Shown here: piece after piece, positions 10,892 through 56,440 of the stretch
How positions within the stretch are numbered: the first letter of the stretch is position 1
How the letters are laid out: every line of letters begins with the position of its first letter
From: Cadophora sp. MPI-SDFR-AT-0126
Lineage: Eukaryota; Ascomycota; Leotiomycetes; Helotiales; Ploettnerulaceae
DNA: 64,000 bases
Reading direction: 5' to 3'
NCBI GenBank assembly: GCA_020747065.1
Contig: JAGMVK010000002.1
Location: forward strand, 1,240,001-1,304,000
Position numbers and translations under genes: made by a program
Notes under the pieces: generated by a model
What the model was told of the DNA's origin: nothing
The model's input: the letters and a program-made list of their open reading frames with translations, nothing else
The model's database searches: none

Positions 10892-11819
10892 TCTGCTTTC
10901 TTTAAGCCATGCGCGGCTTGTTGAGAGAGACGTTTCTTTCGATAGATGTTATCAAAGGTGACTCGGCTAAAAGATGGACCACAGCTTGTCTGACTCATGC
11001 TCGTGCCTCGGTTTAGGGACCTGAACCATCGACAACATCCACCAAGTTCGTCGCTCTACTCTACGCCTTGCTTTCACGGCAGATCAAGTGATTCATCTCT
11101 CCAATGTCTAATGTTCCTACACGGGATGCAATGACACCTGCGAGCGACCTAAAGAAGGGATGTCACAGTGTCACGTCGAGATGTGCAATTGCCTCTTTCG
11201 ACAACGGAACATGCCGCTTCTCAAACCAGGACTTCCCAAAGAGGCAAATCCAGAATGCGACGTGCATCAAAAAGTCCCGAGAAATTCCTGTTTAGGATGT
11301 CAACCTCACTCCAGGATCTCGTTCATGATTCGGACTCGCAGCTTCCGGTGTCTCTGATACGATGAGGCGACGATTGATAAGTTTCTCGAATTGGCAATTG
11401 CACTTTGCGATGTGCAACAAAAGCATGTATTGACAGCTTGTGATTTGTTTTGGATAGAGATCTAGTCTTCGATGAACCACTCCTAGACTCTGGTCACTTC
11501 CCCGGGATCGAGTTGACTGGACTTTGGTAGCAATTAGCTAATGCGGAGCTTCGGCTGCCACCATGGAGCAGAGCAGTATCGACGGTCATTTGAGCAAGTC
11601 AGAGTCCCAGATGTCCTCCTTGGTGCAATGTTATATATCACTTAGCTGTGATTATAGCCATCTTGTTTCTGCTCGTCTCAACTTCAGTCTCTATTACTGA
11701 AGCTGATGAGCGGAAATATAAGGCTACACCACATTTCGACAGATGAAAGCCTCCGAAATAACTAGATTCCAGATGTCATCACGACCACTTCCATGATTAT
11801 CATTTCGCAAGAGAAGCAA
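10892..11819. other. Spacer containing outlying core-motif copies
   Basis: No complete gene is supported. The stretch 11180-11423 carries three copies related to the repeat core of the 51-55 kb array and is listed separately. The rest holds nothing recognised. Confidence 0.4.
11180..11423 (+). repeat. Three outlying copies of the D-V-Q-Q-K core motif
   Basis: Copies of the core seen in the 51-55 kb array: 11180-11194 (partial, gat gtg caa ttg), 11259-11273 (gac gtg cat caa aaa) and 11409-11423 (gat gtg caa caa aag). All are on the plus strand with the same implied frame. The third is preceded by an open, protein-like segment (DKFLELAIALCDVQQK). Spacing is 79 and 150 bp, shorter than in the main array. 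No gene model joins them. Confidence 0.55.
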
Positions 11820-34926: not shown

Positions 34927-37431
34927 CTAGTACTCTACAATCTTCACCTTCTTCAGCAGCTCCTCCGGCAACTCCGCTTTGTCAACAATCCCCAAAGAGA
35001 TGACATCCCCCCAGAAAAACATAGCTCTATCCTGCGCGTACGCCAGATAGTCGAACTCTTCCTCTTCATCTCCCTCAGCAGCTGTTTCTCCATTATCCTT
35101 GGTCTCTGGCACCTCTGAAGCAGTCGATTCACTTGAGGTTTCCTCTCCGGGAGCATCCGACACTTTGCTTTCATCAAGACCAGGGACAACGGCTTGAACG
35201 ATTCCCCATGCAACCCACTGAGCGCTATTGGCCACACGCCAAATTCGCACTTCCTTGAGTAGCTCTTGAACCTGTCGCTCTGTTTCTTGTTCTCTTCTGG
35301 CCTCTTCTTCGACATAGTTTGAACTTTGCAGATCAACTGTGCTGCCGCCTGGAGTTCGCGAATCAAGATAGAAATCAGAGATACTGTTCCTGCTGGAGCT
35401 CTCAAGTGGATGCATCTTGGGAGTTGCAGACGCCCTTGGGTTGAACTGTGGGCGGTGATTGAGGTATGAGCGTATGAATGTCATTTGTTGCTCTAGGGAT
35501 GGATAGCACTGAGTATTGCAAGCCCACGACCTTGTAGCATCATGATAATTGTAGCACCACTCCGTGAAATGGTTAGCGAATTCCAAGCCTGGGGTATTTG
35601 CTGAAGCATATTCAAAGTCAATGACTATCAATTGCTTATGTCTGTTCTCAGGTAGCAGAAGAGGCGATGGAGCTGATCCTTCGGTTGGCTTCTCGGGGAC
35701 GAGGCGCAGGATATTTCCGTATTGGGTCTGTAAAGCATCAGTATCTAAAACTTCGATTCGCAAGAGTCAACCTACATCATTGTGAGCAAAGACCAATCTT
35801 CTATTAACGCCGCCCTTTCCATAGTAGCTATCCAGCCACTTGCGGTACTTGTCAATGGCAGCTTTGAATTGAGGCCATTCAACTCCGCAAACCAAGCCCC
35901 TAGATCTCCATAACTCGTCCTTCGATTCCTTGCCGCTGAGGATCTCCTTATCGAGATAAGTGATGACCTTTTCGCAAGTCTTGACCCATTTGTCCCAGTT
36001 CAACCACACGAACGGGCCATCTTCTCGTTCGTTCTCAAGGAGATCAATACCATCATGTAACTCTCGCATACGTTTTGCAATTTGTTTGCTTGTGCTCTCC
36101 ACTCGCAGATCGTCAAATGTCAAGGTTTCCGCATTGAAAAACTCCTCGAAGCGTCCGTTTCTGAAAGTCCCCAGAAGTCTTGGGCCAATCTTCTTGCGAG
36201 CCAGGCGGCAGAGGATAGAGAGCTCGTTTTCACGATCGATGAGATGTTCGACTTGAGGCCCGTAGATACGGAGTAGGAGCTTGGGGGGTGGCTTTGGCGT
36301 GTATGGTTTGCCATTCGAGTTCTGAATCGGTAAATCTTTGGGCGGTGAGACAACGTAGACTGCATTCGTGAGGGCGCCGCTCAATCTCTTCACTTCAATA
36401 TCTCCACCACGTTCCAGCGGCACACGTCTCCAACCCTTCAGCCTCAAAGTATGCGCTAATCTCACAATCTCGTTCTTGAATGTTAGCCATGCCTTTCGCT
36501 CTTTTTCGGCCTTCTTGCTGGTACTCAATGTGACCGTTTCGGTAGCTGATTCTGATGCCCCTCCCCCGTACGACATAGTTTTGGAATTATCAAGCACAAC
36601 ATCGCACGAAGGCACTACGACATCACCATCTTGGTATTCTGTATCCGAGCTTCCAACGTACATCTTTCTCACAGACGAACGTCTTCTCTGGCTCTGACCT
36701 GGACGGCGCGCTTCAGTTGTTGGAGATGCCACAGGCAAGCTATCGAGTCCAAAGGAACTCATGTTATCCTCCAAGATCTGCTGAAGCTTCTCTAGAGAGA
36801 TAGCGCTGCCGTCTGAGCTCTGACTAGCAGTGCGCGGCCGAGATACATGGCTGGCTTCATTATCCTCCAGCTGATCACCTCTCTTGTGTGCCTTCTTCGC
36901 AGCTCTCTTAGCTTTCTCTGCTTGCAACCACTCGGCGACTTGCGACAGGAGTTTGTCGTCGCGATGTTCGTGGTGACCATGGTGCAATGGGCTATGATGT
37001 TTATGATGTACCCCTGGAGCTGGAGAAGACGCGTCCGAGGCGGGCACGGGATCATCGATGCTGCTTTGACTGAGCATTGAGAGCCTCGAGGAGCTTGTTG
37101 GAATACTTGGGCGACCCGTCATTCTTCTTTCGCTGACGCCTGCTCTGAATTGTTTTGGTCGGGACGAATCTTCGGAGCCGGAAAGGGGAGTGATGCTCTC
37201 AGGCTCTGCGATCGAGACGACTATTCTTGGTTAGCTTCAATTTGTTGGTTATTGAACAAAGAGTAGGGAGGAGATTGGGAAGTGTGGGGTGAATCGATAA
37301 CAATCAACCACCCCACGCTCACATCATGCCTTACCCTTTACTGGGCCACTCTTTGGGCTCGCAGGCTGCTCGTCCTTGAGAGCTGGTCGTAGAGGTAGAG
37401 CTGAGCCATTTTCTGAGGGTGTGAACGACAT
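34927..37431 (-). CDS. Choline/ethanolamine kinase
   Basis: A 780-aa cytosolic kinase that phosphorylates choline (and probably ethanolamine), the first step of the Kennedy pathway to phosphatidylcholine. Exons are 37335-37431, 35776-37220 and 34927-35727. Residues 1 to about 220 are a long disordered, His- and Ser-rich extension. The kinase domain follows: SGALTNAVYVVSPP (phosphate loop), KLLLRIYGPQVEHLIDRENE, GPRLLGTFRNGRFEEF. The Brenner catalytic motif VFAHNDTQYGN spans the second splice (HND at 512-514, Asn519), and the metal-binding Asp is in VIDFEYAS at about 551. The choline-kinase hallmark FANHFTEWCYNY is present. An acidic insertion lies between the last helices. It is longer than yeast Cki1 because of the N-terminal extension. 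Confidence 0.94.
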
Positions 37432-48322: not shown

Positions 48323-50311
48323 TCAAACCCTCCTCCCACCAAACCCCCAAATCTTAGCCACGTTCCCCACCCCAGCACTCAATCCCTCCTCTATATTCAT
48401 CTTCACCCCTCCACCACTACCACCACCCTTCTGAGGCTCAGCAAACGCACAAACAAGGCCCATCCCGTCACTTCTTACATCAACAGCCGTCCATCTCTGC
48501 TCTCGGTACGCGAATCTCTTTCTTGCGCCTCCGCCTCCTCCCTCCTCATCATCATCATCGTCATGAAGACTAGGGGCTTCATCTTTAAGGACTTCGATTA
48601 CCGTGGTGTAGCGTACACCTCCTCTCTCTCCTCCTCCTGCTCTCTCCCGACTATCATCTTCAGCAAAAGGATCTCCAGTAGCGTCACCGCCATACAATAT
48701 CTCCGCATCTCTCCTCCCCCTCGGCAGCGCATGGACGAGGAGGTGTACATCGGGGAATTGCGCGAAGATCTGTCCGAGAGCGGGTTTGTGCGTGGCGGAT
48801 GAGAAGATGGAGCGGGATTGGAGGGGTCTGGGTTGGTTGTGGTTGTGGCGGGGATTTGGGGGCGGATAGGATGTGTTGGTGCTGGTTGTTGATGGGTTTG
48901 TGGTGTTGTGCAGGATGGTGAGGATGTTGTTTGTTTTGGAGAGGGTGTGGAGGGTTGAGGAGAGGAGGGTTAGGAGGGTGTGGGCTGGTTGTAGGTGTTA
49001 GCTTTATATCATTGTATTCCTCGCCTTGTGTTTTTTGGTATGATTGTAGATATAAGGTGGTTTCTGTTGGGAAGGTATGGGCAAGGGGGAAACGTACCGT
49101 CGCTCTTCTCCTTCCTAGCAAATAATTCGTTGATGATATGCGTCATGTTATCCACGATGATGATTTCGATGCCTTCATCTTCACTCGCATTATCTCCTTC
49201 CTCTTTCGAGGTTGATGATGGACTATCGCTGGGTGGCGAGGTATCTTCTTCGCTGTCGAGAATTTCAGGCGTGCTGGGTCCAATGTCTTGCTCCGCCGCT
49301 GGTAACTCATCCGTAACGTTGAAAGCTGCCTTTTCGGTCCCATTCTTGCCATCCAGTTCAGAGGTCAACGAAGACTCAACATGATCTACCTCCCCAATAA
49401 CCTCCCATAAACCCTCGATGTCGAAAACGCGGCTAATCGCTACCATCTCCAAACATTGCTGGACTTGCTCATCAACAAACTCTTTGTCCTTCCCATCTAT
49501 CCCAGCCCCGGACTTAGTATTTTTAGGTTCCTGAACAGCATGATTACCGGTTTGTACTGCATTTTGAGCAGAAAGAGAACGTGCTTCTAAGAGCCGGGAT
49601 TTCAGGACCGAAGCGAGGAGAGCAAGCGGAAAGGATCCCGCTGTGTCGATTATTGTTGCTTTTGGCTTTGCTGGACGGGATTTGCTCGTTGATGGTAATG
49701 AGAGACATGGGAGGAGAGTTGAGGCGAGAAGGTGGAGGGAGAGCTGGTTTCGTTAGCTGTGCGTTTCGGATGCTTCTGAGAAACGAAGAAGACACAGAAG
49801 ATAGTCGTATGAACTTGAAGACAGAACACAGCGAATTCGATCAACCGACTCGATACATAGACAGCGTGAAGCAAGAAGTTTCAAGCAACAACAACTCGGC
49901 ATGGACAGCGTGAACGAGAAGAATGGATGCAACGTAACCAAATGAGTATATCCGCCTCTCACTCCAGCACCACTCAGTCTCCTCCGCATACACGTCTATG
50001 ACATTACCGACCTCAAATATATCCCGAAATCAAATGAAAATAACGAAGAAGGAATTACTCACCAACCTCCCCTCCCTCGCCTCGACAGACGCACTAATCC
50101 CCAGCACAACACCCCTCTCAGTACCATCTCCACCAAGCACCTCATCAAGCTCCCTACATCCCGTACTCAGTCTCTCCGGCCGTCCATGACGCGCGAATCT
50201 TTTCCGTTGCTGCTCTTCTAGCTCGAGGAGATGAGAGGCTAGGATTGGAAGGGCGGGTTCTGGAGGTGATGGAGTGGCGTTGGGGAGGAGTGAGTGGTCT
50301 ATGTGTATCAT
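48323..50311 (-). CDS. Rad51-like recombination/repair family protein with degenerate P-loop
   Basis: A 518-aa protein modelled from exons 50063-50311, 49098-49743 and 48323-48984 with phase-compatible GT-AG introns of 319 and 113 nt. The order of features follows RecA/Rad51 paralogues: a helical N-terminus, RLSTGCRELDEVLGG, RGVVLGIS..., then a Walker B-like ATIIDTAGSF, a MVAISRVFDIEGLWEVI helix, IEIIIVDNMTHIINELF, and a later LHTLSKTNNILTILHNTTN segment. A normal Walker A (GK[ST]) is missing: the position reads GREGRLLSL-like. The 319-nt intron is long for this window, so a missed exon is possible. The acidic insertions (EEDTSPPSDSPSSTSKEEGD) are disordered. A nuclear repair role is inferred from similarity only. 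Confidence 0.75.
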
Positions 50312-51022
50312 TGCGACGTTAGGTGCTTGATTGATTTGTGGAGAGGATAGCTGGATGCGAGATGGTTGGAATGGGTAATGAGTGGATTTTGGATATCATG
50401 AGATTGGATGAGATGAGAGAGAGGTACAAGTCTGAGGCAGGATGGACCCAGAAGAAAAGTTGATCTTTTGAGGGGGAAGAGAAAATGAGAATAATCCTAT
50501 CTCATGCCGTAAAGAGGCTACATAATTTTCGGTGCTTCGTAGAAGCTGTGTTCTCTGCTTTACTTGACCTGATAAGATACCGTAGTGATGTTTGTTCAAG
50601 CTCCAGTCAAGGTTGATGGCCAATTGAGAAGCGAGCTTCCACCCTTGGAGAGAAGCGAACGAGCCCAACCAGGGTCAGTTCATGCGTGACAATATTCCTG
50701 TGCACCTTTATCCTTTGAACGGAAAGACATAATATATATCATGGTGCCCTATTCCTTCGATGAATGTGTATGTATTGAATTAAATCAGCAGTCGTCTTGA
50801 CATTCCACGAACTTTCCAGCCAGCCAGCCAGCCAGCCAGCCACGTGTTAAACACATGTCCAACACGTGTCTCACCCCTACAGTACCTGCACTGAAGATCT
50901 CAAGATCCCGCGGTCTAGACCCGGCGATAAATGCCCCCAAATCCTGAATATCCTCCTCCCTTCAATCCACCACATCCGACCGAATCCGACTTTGAACTTG
51001 GCGAGTGAAAGATCGTCCTCGC
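50312..51022. other. Intergenic upstream of repeat array
   Basis: Promoter side of the Rad51-like gene. It contains a CCAG tetranucleotide tract and two CACGTG boxes (listed separately), then a CT-rich stretch at 50950-50970 that resembles a transcript leader on the plus strand. No coding region is supported. Confidence 0.45.
50816..50868. promoter_or_regulatory. CCAG repeat followed by two CACGTG E-boxes
   Basis: Six tandem CCAG units end directly in CACGTG (50841-50846). A second CACGTG follows at 50863-50868, with ACATG between. CACGTG is the palindromic core bound by bHLH factors. The site lies between the Rad51-like gene and the repeat array and could serve either; function is inferred only. 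Confidence 0.45.
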
Positions 51023-54000
51023 GGCGTGCAACAAAAGGTCGACTCCTGCCAACAAGTTCTCTCTCTTGCTGCCTAATCTAAAGACTTCATACCATCGTTT
51101 CGTCGGGCGGAGTAAGCGTCTGCCCTCTGTTATCCGGCAAAGCCACGATGGGAAAGTCCAGTCTAGATTCCAAACGCGCCTATTTCCGACCCATAGAAGC
51201 CGCCAGCCAGCTCTTTGCAGATCAGCAAAAGTGCGACGTGCATCAGAAATTCAAACAGATTGCTATGCTCTCTTATTCCTGCTGTTTATAGATTGGTAGG
51301 GGTCCTCCTGTTGGGCGTGGATAAAGTAGCCTGGAAACAGTTGGGTGGGAACGAGCCGGTTATCGTGGGGTGGAAGGGGGGGAGCTTGACGCCAATACCC
51401 CAAACTCTACGGTCTGGATTGCTCCAGTTGGTTCCTAAACGGGAAGCCAAAATGTCGCTCATTTTGCGGTATGCAACAAAGATTCGCTTCTAAGGTTTGT
51501 CTTGTTGTGATTTGATTGCTTCGAATGACCTGCCGCTGGGCTGGCTTGGGTTCGGCTTGGAATGGGGGAATGGGATGTTGGATTTCCTCTTTCGGACGGT
51601 CTGGACGACCAAGAGTCTTCTTGGCAACCGGGCGATCTCTCAGATATGCAACAAAAGAATCAGTTGAAAAGCATGAGGCTTTTCATTTGCCTTTGAGGGC
51701 ATGGCAGGAGTCAAAACCTTGAGGGTTCTGCGCAAGAAAAGAGCACTGTTGGTTTGTGGCTGCAGCCACAACAGGATCAGGCGAAGCAAAGAGATTACCC
51801 AAAACTCTAAACGATATGGCAGAAAGAGACTCGAACGCTCCATAAGTGGACGCTAATCTTGCAGATCTCTGTAGATGTGCAACAAAAGTTAGAAGTATGT
51901 GCTGCTTCGTGGATTTGACTCTTGAACGGGACTGTTCGGATGCTTCGGTCAGGGGAATTACCTCGAACGGTGGCTGATGCAGATAGCCGTGCCTGGGGGT
52001 GGAATCAGGATGAGGTTGACGATCTCTCACGCCATAACCGCCGTCTGGACCGCTCGATTTCTTTGCAGATCCCATCAAGATGTGCAACAGAAATTCAGAA
52101 CATCCAGCTCCTCTCAAATGATTCGTTGCCAACTTACAGGCGGCCCGTTGCTTGCTTGGGGTCGCCGTGCGAATTTGACAGCTGATGCTTGTCTATCGCT
52201 GGAAGGTTCCTGAGGCCAGACAGTCAAACAAAGAGAAGAGAAAAAGGGAACCCTCACACAACAACGGTCAACAGCCACATTTTGTGCTCCAGTTATTTGC
52301 GACGTGCAACAGAAGGGCACTTCATCTCTTCTGTGTAACCTTCCAGCTTTGATCTCGTCCGCCCAAACCTGCAACGCTTTTCCTCTCGACATCCCGTGCA
52401 TAGTAGTCGCCCATGTGAGAGGACCCCGAACATCCCGCATGGGCATGGGGTAAATGGAATCGATGACCTGCAGGGTCGTGCATCAATCTCGAACGCTCCA
52501 AAAGCCTTTCCAATTCCTTGGATAGCTGGGCCTCTATTCAGATCGTGCAACAAAAGATGAACATTACCCTTTTTCACCCTTCCTACTGGATCGTGAGAGT
52601 CGTGACCAGATCCTTTTTTCCTTGGAAACTGTAATGCGCCGCTGCATACGCCCGAATGCAATCAAAGATACAGTCCAGGCACAACAGCCACATCATTCTA
52701 GACCGGAAGATCCTTCGATGCCGGCGTGCAACAAAAGATCTCATCCTTCTCGTCGCCGAGCAATCAGGAGCGAGGAGCTGACTCTTGATGCTTGGTTGTA
52801 ATCACTCGAACCTCGGGCAACGAATCAAGGTCAGCTGGTCTCAGCAATCTGGAACATCCCTTCGTCTGAGACACCAGGAAAATACTCTAAATCGTCCATC
52901 TCCGCTCTCCTGCATGAAGGGTGCGATTTGCATCAGAAATTCTTTGCAGAAAGACGAAAAGAATGTGACTCGAAGTCAGCTGAGCTGAGTTGAGTCAGTC
53001 GAGGACACCATACCCCTTTCTCAGCCCTATCAAGGGTCAGTCAACATTCTTACGACGTCTACCCTCCCGTACACGACATCATCCCCACCAGACCAGGGAC
53101 TCGGTGTCGGTGAACGCTTCCGAAGCAAACCCGCCAACAGAGTTGCCAGCTAGCTCCGGCACTTGGGAGGGCTTCGGGCGGGCTTCCAAGACCCTTCCAA
53201 GCCATGTAGACATGCAACAAAAGCTGCAAGCAGCTGTTGTTCATCTCGCTGAGGCTTCTGCTCTGCAGGAGACGAGAAGGATGGCTGCTTCCGAAGTCAA
53301 GGGTTTGCTTGGTCTGTTGGATGGTGACATTTCTCCTTGGGACCAAGCGAAATAGGGGATGATTCTTTTGGCTCTCGCTAAATCTAGGCTCTTCTTGTTT
53401 GTTCTTGGAAGTGGACGGGAAAACACATCTCTTCTGTCTTGCTCATCATGAAGTTGAACCGACAATTGTTGGGTATGAAATACCATAAATCAGCTTTGAG
53501 ATATTCTAAAGACGGTTCTCTATTTTTTCATTTCAAAACCAAGCCTATCCCCGATTCCCATTGACAGCGCCTTGTTACCGTAGATATCAGGCAAGCGAGA
53601 TCCATTTCCATCGCGTTTGCCCAGAGCAAAATAGACTGCACCGTCCCGCCCATACATCACTAGTTCCTCTTGGACTTTTTGTAGACATGCATCAAAACCC
53701 TCTTCCCACTCCTCCTATCTCTTCAATTCGCCATAGTTCTCAAGCCAAGCCCTATCTTCATCGTATGTTCACCGGGGCACTCGGGCGTCGCCGACTCGCC
53801 CGCTGTTCGCTGCTCGGTACGGCGTCGGCATTGCATCACTAAGTCTTGGGCTTGGCTACAGTCAACAACATGCATGCGGCCGGAACTTTACATCCCTTCC
53901 CTTTTCTTGTGCATGTTTGCGGCTACAGTCATCAACACCAAGAGCCTTCTAATCGAACGCCCAGAATTGTAGATGTGCAACAGAACTCTATTTCTTTGAT

Positions 54001-55508
54001 TATTCTGTGGACGGGCTTTTTTTTTTCGCGTGAAGGTGGAACGAACGGCTGCTGACCTGGTCTGCTGCTGTGGACGTGGTGGATGGGAAGGGTGACGTCC
54101 TTGGCTGACGAACTCCTCCTTTGACTCCTTACGACCTATTTCCATTTATTTCCTAGCCCTGGCACTCACTCCCGAGACGGCGTGGCTTGGAGGTTTCTGA
54201 GATGTGCAACAGAGATTTTTCTTCTATTTAGTCTCGGCTTCTGATTCGTCGTTTGCAACCGTGGTTGGAGCTTTTGACTGACCCCTGAGTTGAGGCTGAC
54301 GATGGGAGATGCGACATGTCGAGGCTTGGCTGATGAGAGGTTTATTTCCACATCGATGCCATGCCTTGGTATAGAGTGCGATGTGCGACAGAGATCTATA
54401 TGGGAAATTCGAAGATTAATGACTTATTTCTTAAAATCTCGTCATGATCGCATCCCAGAAGATCTTTCGTTTGGTGTTGACTACAGACAATCAAACGATA
54501 CTTCTTGGCGAGCGAGAATTGTCAACATCAACCACTGCTCTAAAATCTTAAATTTTCTCAGGTTGTGCGGATCGCAAGGAGACAACTTCGTTGCAATCCG
54601 TGTAATCGCTGTGCACTTGTAATCTCCCTTCAAAAGACGCACATACTCTGCCCATACTCTGCCCGCTCGACCAAACCACAAAAACGAGAAGAAAGAAGAA
54701 TCTCAGATCCTTGGCAGTCAGTAGTCAAAAATTCCAAAATTTCTGACTACAGCACACACACCAATACCCACCGACTCTCAAGCCAAGAAATTGGCAAACC
54801 GTACGACTTGCAACAGAACCCACCAAGATCTGACTCCATTGGTGATCTTGTACTATTGTTACTCTTGGCTTTACGAACGTACTTTGTATTCGAGTACCGT
54901 AGAAAGAGAAAGATCGGTTTGGTAGCTTGGCGGCGCTATCAAGTAAGTTAGCGAAAGTGGTCCGTTTCTTTACGATAGCATTTTCAAATGCCGACGGCTT
55001 CAATTTTTCGCTGCCAAGGGATTGGCAGGGTCTATGATGTGCAACAAAATAGATTCAAGAGTGAATTGATTGGTGGTATCGCGCTGTTTTTACTCTTGAC
55101 GTACTGGAGTGCCGGAGAAAGAGAGGTTAGGTTGGAAAAGTATTGGATACCTTGGCATATGCAACCTAAATGGGAATTTTCCACCTCCCTCATCGAAAGC
55201 CTCGGATCACAATCAATACTTCGTTTATTCACAGCCAACGAAATATGCTTTCATTGTTCGTGTGTGGTATTCATCCCAGGTGTTCAAGATGGACCAATAT
55301 TGGCATACAGTGACATAAAACAGCGGGCGTGAGCTCGCCGTGTTCATTTATCTACGGTGACTTTCACAGAGGCAGATATTAGACGATGCTTTTATGTTTC
55401 CCTTGCGTAAGAGCCTCTCGAAATCTATTACTCGTCCCATTTCCTCATTCCCCTTAACCCATTTTCTCCGACATGATGACACAGCACCTTATGCGTATGC
55501 AACAGCAG
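51023..55508 (+). repeat. Quasi-periodic array of a 15-nt exon-like core (D-V-Q-Q-K)
   Basis: Copies of GAY RTG CAW CAR AAR start at 51023, 51235, 51468, 51643, 51874, 52079, 52301, 52542, 52723, 52925, 53209, 53684, 53972, 54201, 54380, 54805, 55036 and 55494, with a weaker one at 55156. All are in plus orientation. Spacing is mostly 175-290 bp, with gaps of 425-475 bp where units may be lost. Read in one frame, the core encodes Asp - Val/Met/Leu - Gln/His - Gln - Lys/Asn/Arg, and substitutions fall mainly at third positions or swap similar residues, as for coding exons. The residue before Asp is often Cys, Tyr or Val. Flanks differ, stops interrupt most frames, and no single gene model joins the units. 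Units at 54805 and 55036 share a longer segment. Function unknown. Confidence 0.7.
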
Positions 55509-56440
55509 GACGAACATGAAGAGGACGTCTCCAGGATCTTCAAGAATATGCGAAGAGGATGTGAAATTCAGGAATGACAAGAAGATGCCTGAAACCTACT
55601 GACAGGAAGAGAGAGAGAGAATGCAAGCTCAGCTAAGGTCACTAAATACCTAGAATACAAAGGCCAAAACTTCAACTGCTGCCGCTTACCTAAATTCACA
55701 GCATATCGTAGTATTATCCAAGAATGTTATAGATCATGGATACGCAAGTTTCAAGTTGGCTTCTCAACCCCAATCAACGCCAGAATCGACGGTCAAAGAG
55801 GGACATCTTTCCGCTGGTGATGGCTCTGGAGTTGTAGGAGTGGAAATAGGTAAGGTCATTGCTTATTGGTACGAAATATTTCAGCAATACTAGAATCGAG
55901 TGAGGAAATGGCACCTGCAAGATGAAAGTATCGACAAATCGTGGAGACTCCAATGCAATGGGAAGAACTTGAGAGCAAACAGGGGCTTGTGCTCTAACTT
56001 ACATCGACTTGAGTTCAACGGCTCTCGAGGTACCTCTCCAAAGTGTCTTGATCTTGATATTACGGCCTCGTACATTAATAGCATGCGGTCTAAGCGCTTA
56101 GTATTAAAAAAGGAACTGAACACTGGCGCAGAAACTGGGAAAGAAAAGAAAGAACACACATGAAAATGCAAGACGTCTATTCGGCTCACATCTATACAAT
56201 AAGTTATGCTTATGCTCGAGGGAAAATGAATCGAACGCCTCTGGTCTCCCGGTTTAGACAGCTCGTCAATTCATTATGCCCAAATCAGCCACCCAAAATC
56301 CCGACATGTAGATCCGACATATTAGGAAAATCGTCCGCTCTCCTTGATATCTTTCCCTCCTCCTTACGTTCCAGACACGAGCATGAGAGACATGGTGCTG
56401 GAATATACCTCGTATCATTTCATCTGGAAACCTGCTCAGT
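55509..56440. other. Intergenic, right of the repeat array
   Basis: No supported gene. A (GA)n run lies near 55609-55622. Short frames only. A possible extra 3' exon of the neighbouring minus-strand gene could lie at about 56300-56390. Confidence 0.4.

Follow-up and report, generated by a model that had tools for sequence, protein, structure and literature searches.

The window analysed here, a 64,000-nt stretch of the Cadophora sp. MPI-SDFR-AT-0126 genome, contains ORFs with eukaryotic domains, including a fungal TRP-type channel and a choline kinase with 92% identity to its Cadophora gregata counterpart. Between two minus-strand coding regions lies an array of a short one-way motif with no host gene model, as the first-pass annotation had stated. 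The array and its neighbours are listed below, together with two strong sites elsewhere in the window; the array is defined by pattern matches and by a 21-column weight matrix, seeded with the core, whose scores are given in bits.

48350..49674, minus strand: left neighbour, coding segments with their 5' side towards the array (no Pfam match for 48349-48994)
51023..55050, plus strand: whole array, 16 full sites and one partial copy
51020..51040, plus strand: site 1 (core 51023), 22.0 bits
51232..51252, plus strand: site 2, 27.5 bits
51465..51485, plus strand: site 3, 22.6 bits
51640..51660, plus strand: site 4, 21.4 bits
51871..51891, plus strand: site 5, 23.2 bits
52076..52096, plus strand: site 6, 23.9 bits
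52298..52318, plus strand: site 7, 26.7 bits
52539..52559, plus strand: partial copy, right half TGCAACAAAAG retained and GA of the left half missing, 3.1 bits
52720..52740, plus strand: site 8, 18.2 bits
52922..52942, plus strand: site 9, 26.1 bits
53206..53226, plus strand: site 10, 20.8 bits
53681..53701, plus strand: site 11, 18.7 bits
53969..53989, plus strand: site 12, 22.0 bits
54198..54218, plus strand: site 13, core directly preceded by TGA, 25.9 bits
54377..54397, plus strand: site 14, 21.6 bits
54802..54822, plus strand: site 15, 23.9 bits
55033..55053, plus strand: site 16, 19.4 bits
56994..57671, minus strand: right neighbour, 225-aa ORF with its 3' end towards the array (no Pfam match)
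11256..11276, plus strand: strong site outside the array (core 11259), 27.6 bits
11406..11426, plus strand: strong site outside the array (core 11409), 150 bp beyond the previous one, 28.4 bits

With up to two mismatches allowed, GAYRTGCAWCARAAR has 21 matches in the window; 100 shuffles gave 3.71 on average (sd 1.89, largest 9). Seventeen of them fall at 51023-55050, all on the plus strand and 175 to 475 bp apart; 16 of these score 18.2-27.5 bits, and the copy at 52542 only 3.1. About 18 copies had initially been reported over 51023-55508, in a single orientation and at quasi-regular spacing. The array is real, and its orientation (17 of 17 copies) and spacing were correctly described, but it is slightly shorter: the supposed last copy near 55494 scores -6.7 bits and is not a member, so that 16 good sites and one partial copy are left. 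A further weak copy lies outside the array at 36937 (16.1 bits). The array is directed away from the closer of its two neighbours, whose 5' end is 1.3 kb distant, and towards a 3' end at a distance of about 2 kb. A CCAG microsatellite of 6.8 copies is found immediately to its left, at 50816-50842.

Searches for known element types gave little. A tandem-repeat search found no tandem array within 50.9-55.6 kb, and thus none of the head-to-tail whole units of a minisatellite or satellite. There were no Rfam matches in the window at gathering score, and the three obtained in a permissive search of 50500-56000 (up to E 10) are at chance level; a tRNA search returned nothing that would explain the array. 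RNA folding of sites with their flanks, on both strands and for the first 110 qualifying sites, gave mean z values of -0.33 to -0.01, with no strong structure.

Read as codons, the core varies at its first and fourth codons in a way that looks synonymous, and this wobble had been taken as a sign of coding sequence, either a many-exon gene or a set of decayed exons. It fails at the two codons between. Swaps to synonymous (or His) codons were searched for with fresh patterns, because the weight matrix had been seeded with the core: replacing GTG at codon 2 by GTT, GTC, or GTA gave nine matches in the genome (control 1), and replacing CAA or CAT at codon 3 by CAG or CAC gave four (control 2), versus 106 for the motif itself. 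Codon 2 is instead GTG, ATG, or TTG, and codon 3 CAA or CAT. The ORFs of the window use CAG 81 times versus 106 for CAA, and GTC or GTT more often than GTG. The conserved positions just upstream of the core read TGC and TAC but also TGA and TAA and are not a codon; at some sites a stop codon stands directly before the core. Open frames around the copies are of ordinary length (median 66 codons, versus 55 elsewhere in the region), and neither free synonymous exchange nor a longer-than-background open frame around each copy was found. The array is noncoding, and exons, living or decayed, are scarcely credible as its origin. The third candidate put forward at the outset, a binding signal that mimics wobble, was in our judgement rightly seen; a degenerate DNA site can look like codon wobble by eye.

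The motif is abundant well beyond the window. In the whole genome (53,960,497 bases, 38 contigs) the exact 15-mer has 106 matches and the same pattern read backwards, as a control, four, so the check for genome-wide enrichment that the first-pass annotation had proposed came out positive. The looser and shorter core GAHDTGCAACARA has 358 matches versus 22 in the reversed control, and sub-patterns searched separately give the same total. In an alignment of 90 distinct copies, conserved columns extend from -3 to about +17 relative to the core start, with no further reliable column at a fixed distance; one at -82 passed the cut-off and was taken as noise. The 15-mer is contained in a one-way site of 18-21 bp which, refined on 134 sites, has the consensus TGCGAYDTGCAWCARAAR followed by a weak pyrimidine tail. 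It is long, gap-free, internally degenerate, and non-palindromic, an architecture that would suit a multi-module DNA binder. Coding segments were detected around just six of 176 sites, the other 170 lying outside them. No title on such a motif appeared in the literature searched by motif words, a search that leaves out subscription papers.

Cluster and pair statistics cover 352 of the 358 places. Of these, 189 are dispersed single copies and 163 fall into 49 clusters (gaps of at most 1500 bp); there are 83 neighbour pairs less than 500 bp apart, against about 1.1 expected at random. Members of such pairs are on the same strand in 80 of 83 cases, and in 62 of 65 when the three largest clusters are left out, in contrast to only 57 of 108 pairs more than 100 kb apart. 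Among loci fetched for closer analysis, mostly picked for holding sites or clusters, spacing has a mode of 150-250 bp, which takes in 42 of 105 same-strand spacings below 1 kb (weight-matrix sites, locus L055 excluded). The window array is one cluster in a genome-wide, orientation-coherent set of noncoding sites. Local tandem duplication is evident at L055 and, with shorter units, at L050 and L051; by itself this would co-orient neighbours, and part of the co-orientation may be explicable in this way. Co-orientation persists, however, where flanks have no detectable similarity. No similarity was found between arrays at different places, except for a repeated unit of contig C26. On this contig and on C28 the exact motif recurs at one copy per 10.3 kb (C26 at 4007, 14308, and 24611; C28 at 15443 and 25748; loci L029 and L030). 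One guess is that this is an rDNA spacer, which would suit a terminator or a fork barrier.

Duplication history does not account for retention of the core, as seen at L055 (contig C37). Here the tandemly repeated unit is about 148 bp long and contains two motif copies; the repeats lie at 1785-2520, with 76% identity over 614 bp. Among sites of the first and of the second type, identity is 0.91 and 1.00 in the core (columns 4-12) and 0.56 and 0.65 in the flanks. All ten periodic positions are included, although the core of one is damaged; a joint alignment of both types is out of register and was excluded. The comparison covers one array only, in which the site itself helped to delimit the units. 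Because the core is 91-100% identical there and the flanks 56-65%, the site seems to be under selection.

Gene surroundings were mapped in 51 site-bearing gaps, with gene calls made from codon scores rather than annotation. Loci L029 and L030, L012 and L019 (which overlap others), and L015, L016, L023, L025, and L073 (weak, or in coding sequence) were dropped beforehand. In 17 of the 51 gaps no gene was found. The gene ends facing the gaps are 3' in 31 of 44 cases and 5' in 13, and the ten gaps with genes on both sides comprise six convergent, four tandem, and no divergent pairs, compared with five, 13, and four among gaps of the window. In 26 of 34 gaps, the nearest gene lies in the direction in which the first site points (p ~0.003). 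In a random draw of eight loci, of which L071 is without a gene and L073, a weak match within coding sequence, was left out, three point to the nearest gene and three away from it, while 3' ends face the sites in seven of ten cases. Since the random draw is evenly split and the array in the window is directed away from the closer neighbour, the preference for the 3' side is no more than a trend, and the relation of site orientation to gene direction is weak. At 110 of 130 individual sites the downstream gene is on the opposite strand, a tally that was not used because members of one array are not independent. Some sites are upstream of genes, 0.3-0.9 kb before the gene start in L020, L024, L026, L035, L036, L037, and L049. 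The array-flanking proteins covered by a Pfam search have no function in common.

Base composition changes across the site. From +20 to +140, the motif strand is G+T-rich at 111 of 163 sites and 36 of 46 loci, which the nearest gene does not explain; before the site there is a weaker, opposite bias (A+C-rich at 91 of 163 sites, 27 of 46 loci). This switch is present at single sites as it is in arrays. Loose G-quadruplex patterns occur after the site on the motif strand at 53 of 163 sites and on the other strand at 14, versus 39 and 31 before it; for strict patterns the numbers are seven and none after, four and three before. A similar but weaker skew extends over about 100 bases after stop codons, and the reverse is seen before start codons, which are preceded by C-rich rather than G-rich sequence. 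A search for a second motif around the sites recovered mainly further copies of the core. A few k-mers are modestly enriched near sites (AAGTA, 26 vs 9.4; ATCTCG, 19 vs 5.1), as are 5'-splice-site-like ones after them (GGTATG, 13 vs 3.4; GTATGT, 11 vs 2.9). Counts of splice signals and terminators around the sites gave no clear excess.

Several known systems share part of this arrangement. The Sal-box arrays of rRNA genes, with sites of about 18 bp bound by TTF-I or Reb1, serve as Pol I terminators and replication fork barriers. Like them, the Cadophora sites are about 18 bp long, several in a row, in a single orientation, and in part on the 3' side of genes, but the sequences are not similar (620 of 4000 column shuffles reach the observed likeness) and the Cadophora sites lie genome-wide beside protein-coding genes. 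CENP-B also has a one-way box, of 17 bp, that recurs across repeats. Read on its reverse strand, the motif beats 3994 of 4000 column shuffles against the full CENP-B consensus, and the genome encodes Abp1-like proteins with a double HTH; at the essential NTTCGNNNNANNCGGGN positions, however, agreement is no better than chance (861 of 4000 shuffles are as good), and the Cadophora sites are dispersed in gene-bearing regions. The CTCF sites of animals are likewise long and directional, and share an orientation within arrays, a likeness of arrangement; CTCF is not known from fungi. Sap1 sites of fission yeast are polar fork barriers (PMC5371812); like the present motif they are non-palindromic, and their orientation matters. 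Similarity to the Sap1 consensus does not exceed chance (801 of 4000 column shuffles).

The CENP-B-type HTH family PF03221 has 27 matches in the genome and PF04218 none. Proteins encoded at L061 (1225-2568) and L062 (1177-2532) combine HTH_ABP1_N, HTH_Tnp_Tc5, and DUF3425, the last replacing the transposase domain. The same three domains are present in 31 of 42 matches to the L061 protein; named three-domain relatives are from Cadophora, Sclerotinia, Botrytis, Oidiodendron, and Leptodontidium, plus one Fusarium; the type is found chiefly in Leotiomycetes. These two Abp1/CENP-B-like proteins are candidate binders, nothing more. The ends of Tc5/pogo-type transposons were also considered as a source of the motif and rejected: ten of the 27 HTH loci were fetched, three of them with inverted repeats, and none has a site of at least 15 bits. 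Beside two related Tc5-type HTH loci there are weak motif-like sequences below the cut-off (L064 at 815, 10.5 bits; L065 at 2368, 10.3 bits).

Such a motif is most simply read as the binding site of a protein, and we infer that this protein recognises it as double-stranded DNA. An ordinary form would be a regulator acting on nearby promoters from long intergenic regions, with co-orientation left over from tandem duplication. A motif of about 20 bp in noncoding DNA, the local duplications in three arrays, and the seven loci with sites shortly upstream of a gene start would all fit. It is less easily reconciled with gene ends that face the sites mostly by their 3' side, with co-orientation among dissimilar flanks, or with the lack of a common function among the searched proteins beside arrays, and this explanation is somewhat doubtful. 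If the sites were instead neutral tandem repeats with decayed flanks, the motif being a remnant of transposon ends, the tandem units of L055, L050, and L051 would fit; but the core resists decay, more than half of the places are dispersed single copies, and the ten HTH loci fetched have no site of at least 15 bits. A relic of this kind is improbable.

Two further explanations would have the site act through RNA. Each site could start or mark a short or antisense transcript, as a promoter or processing element, and an array would be a row of RNA units. Co-orientation at transcript scale, the switch from A+C-rich to G+T-rich sequence, and the 5'-splice-site-like k-mers that follow are all consistent with this, while the absence of Rfam matches at gathering score in the window, of strong folding, and of any column conserved at a fixed distance argues against it, as does the C-rich sequence before start codons in this genome; it is considered unlikely. 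Alternatively, transcripts holding arrays of targets might pair with a small antisense RNA some 20 nt long. The length, the single orientation per array, and several degenerate positions (Y, R) compatible with G-U wobble suit such pairing, but one A/T position is incompatible with wobble, the strongest positions are central and not in a seed, and the spacers would have to be transcribed. Small-RNA targets are thus very improbable.

The explanation tentatively preferred, short of an even chance, is that the sites are bound by a sequence-specific protein and act as polar roadblocks at the edges of noncoding spacers, the mechanism being chosen by analogy. A putative protein, for which a CENP-B/Abp1-like factor is one candidate, would bind each one-way site, and a run of sites would stop or slow polymerases leaving a gene, as read-through at 3' ends or as divergent transcripts at 5' ends; alternatively, it would stop or slow replication forks arriving from the other direction. 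The 18-bp Sal-box terminators and the Sap1 or Reb1 sites of other organisms (for Sap1, PMC5371812) are the precedent. In a more far-reaching version, which is distinctly unlikely, several hundred one-way sites in oriented, nucleosome-scale arrays would form a directional boundary code. A domesticated transposase of the CENP-B/Abp1 type would read them as polar barriers, and these would keep transcription apart from replication between genes.

In rDNA, in fission yeast, and in animals, transcription or replication is known to be ordered by directional DNA sites. A long and strongly enriched motif of coherent orientation across the genome of a filamentous fungus would give a direct handle on how neighbouring genes are separated, and the arrays make the idea of a roadblock testable by deletion or inversion.
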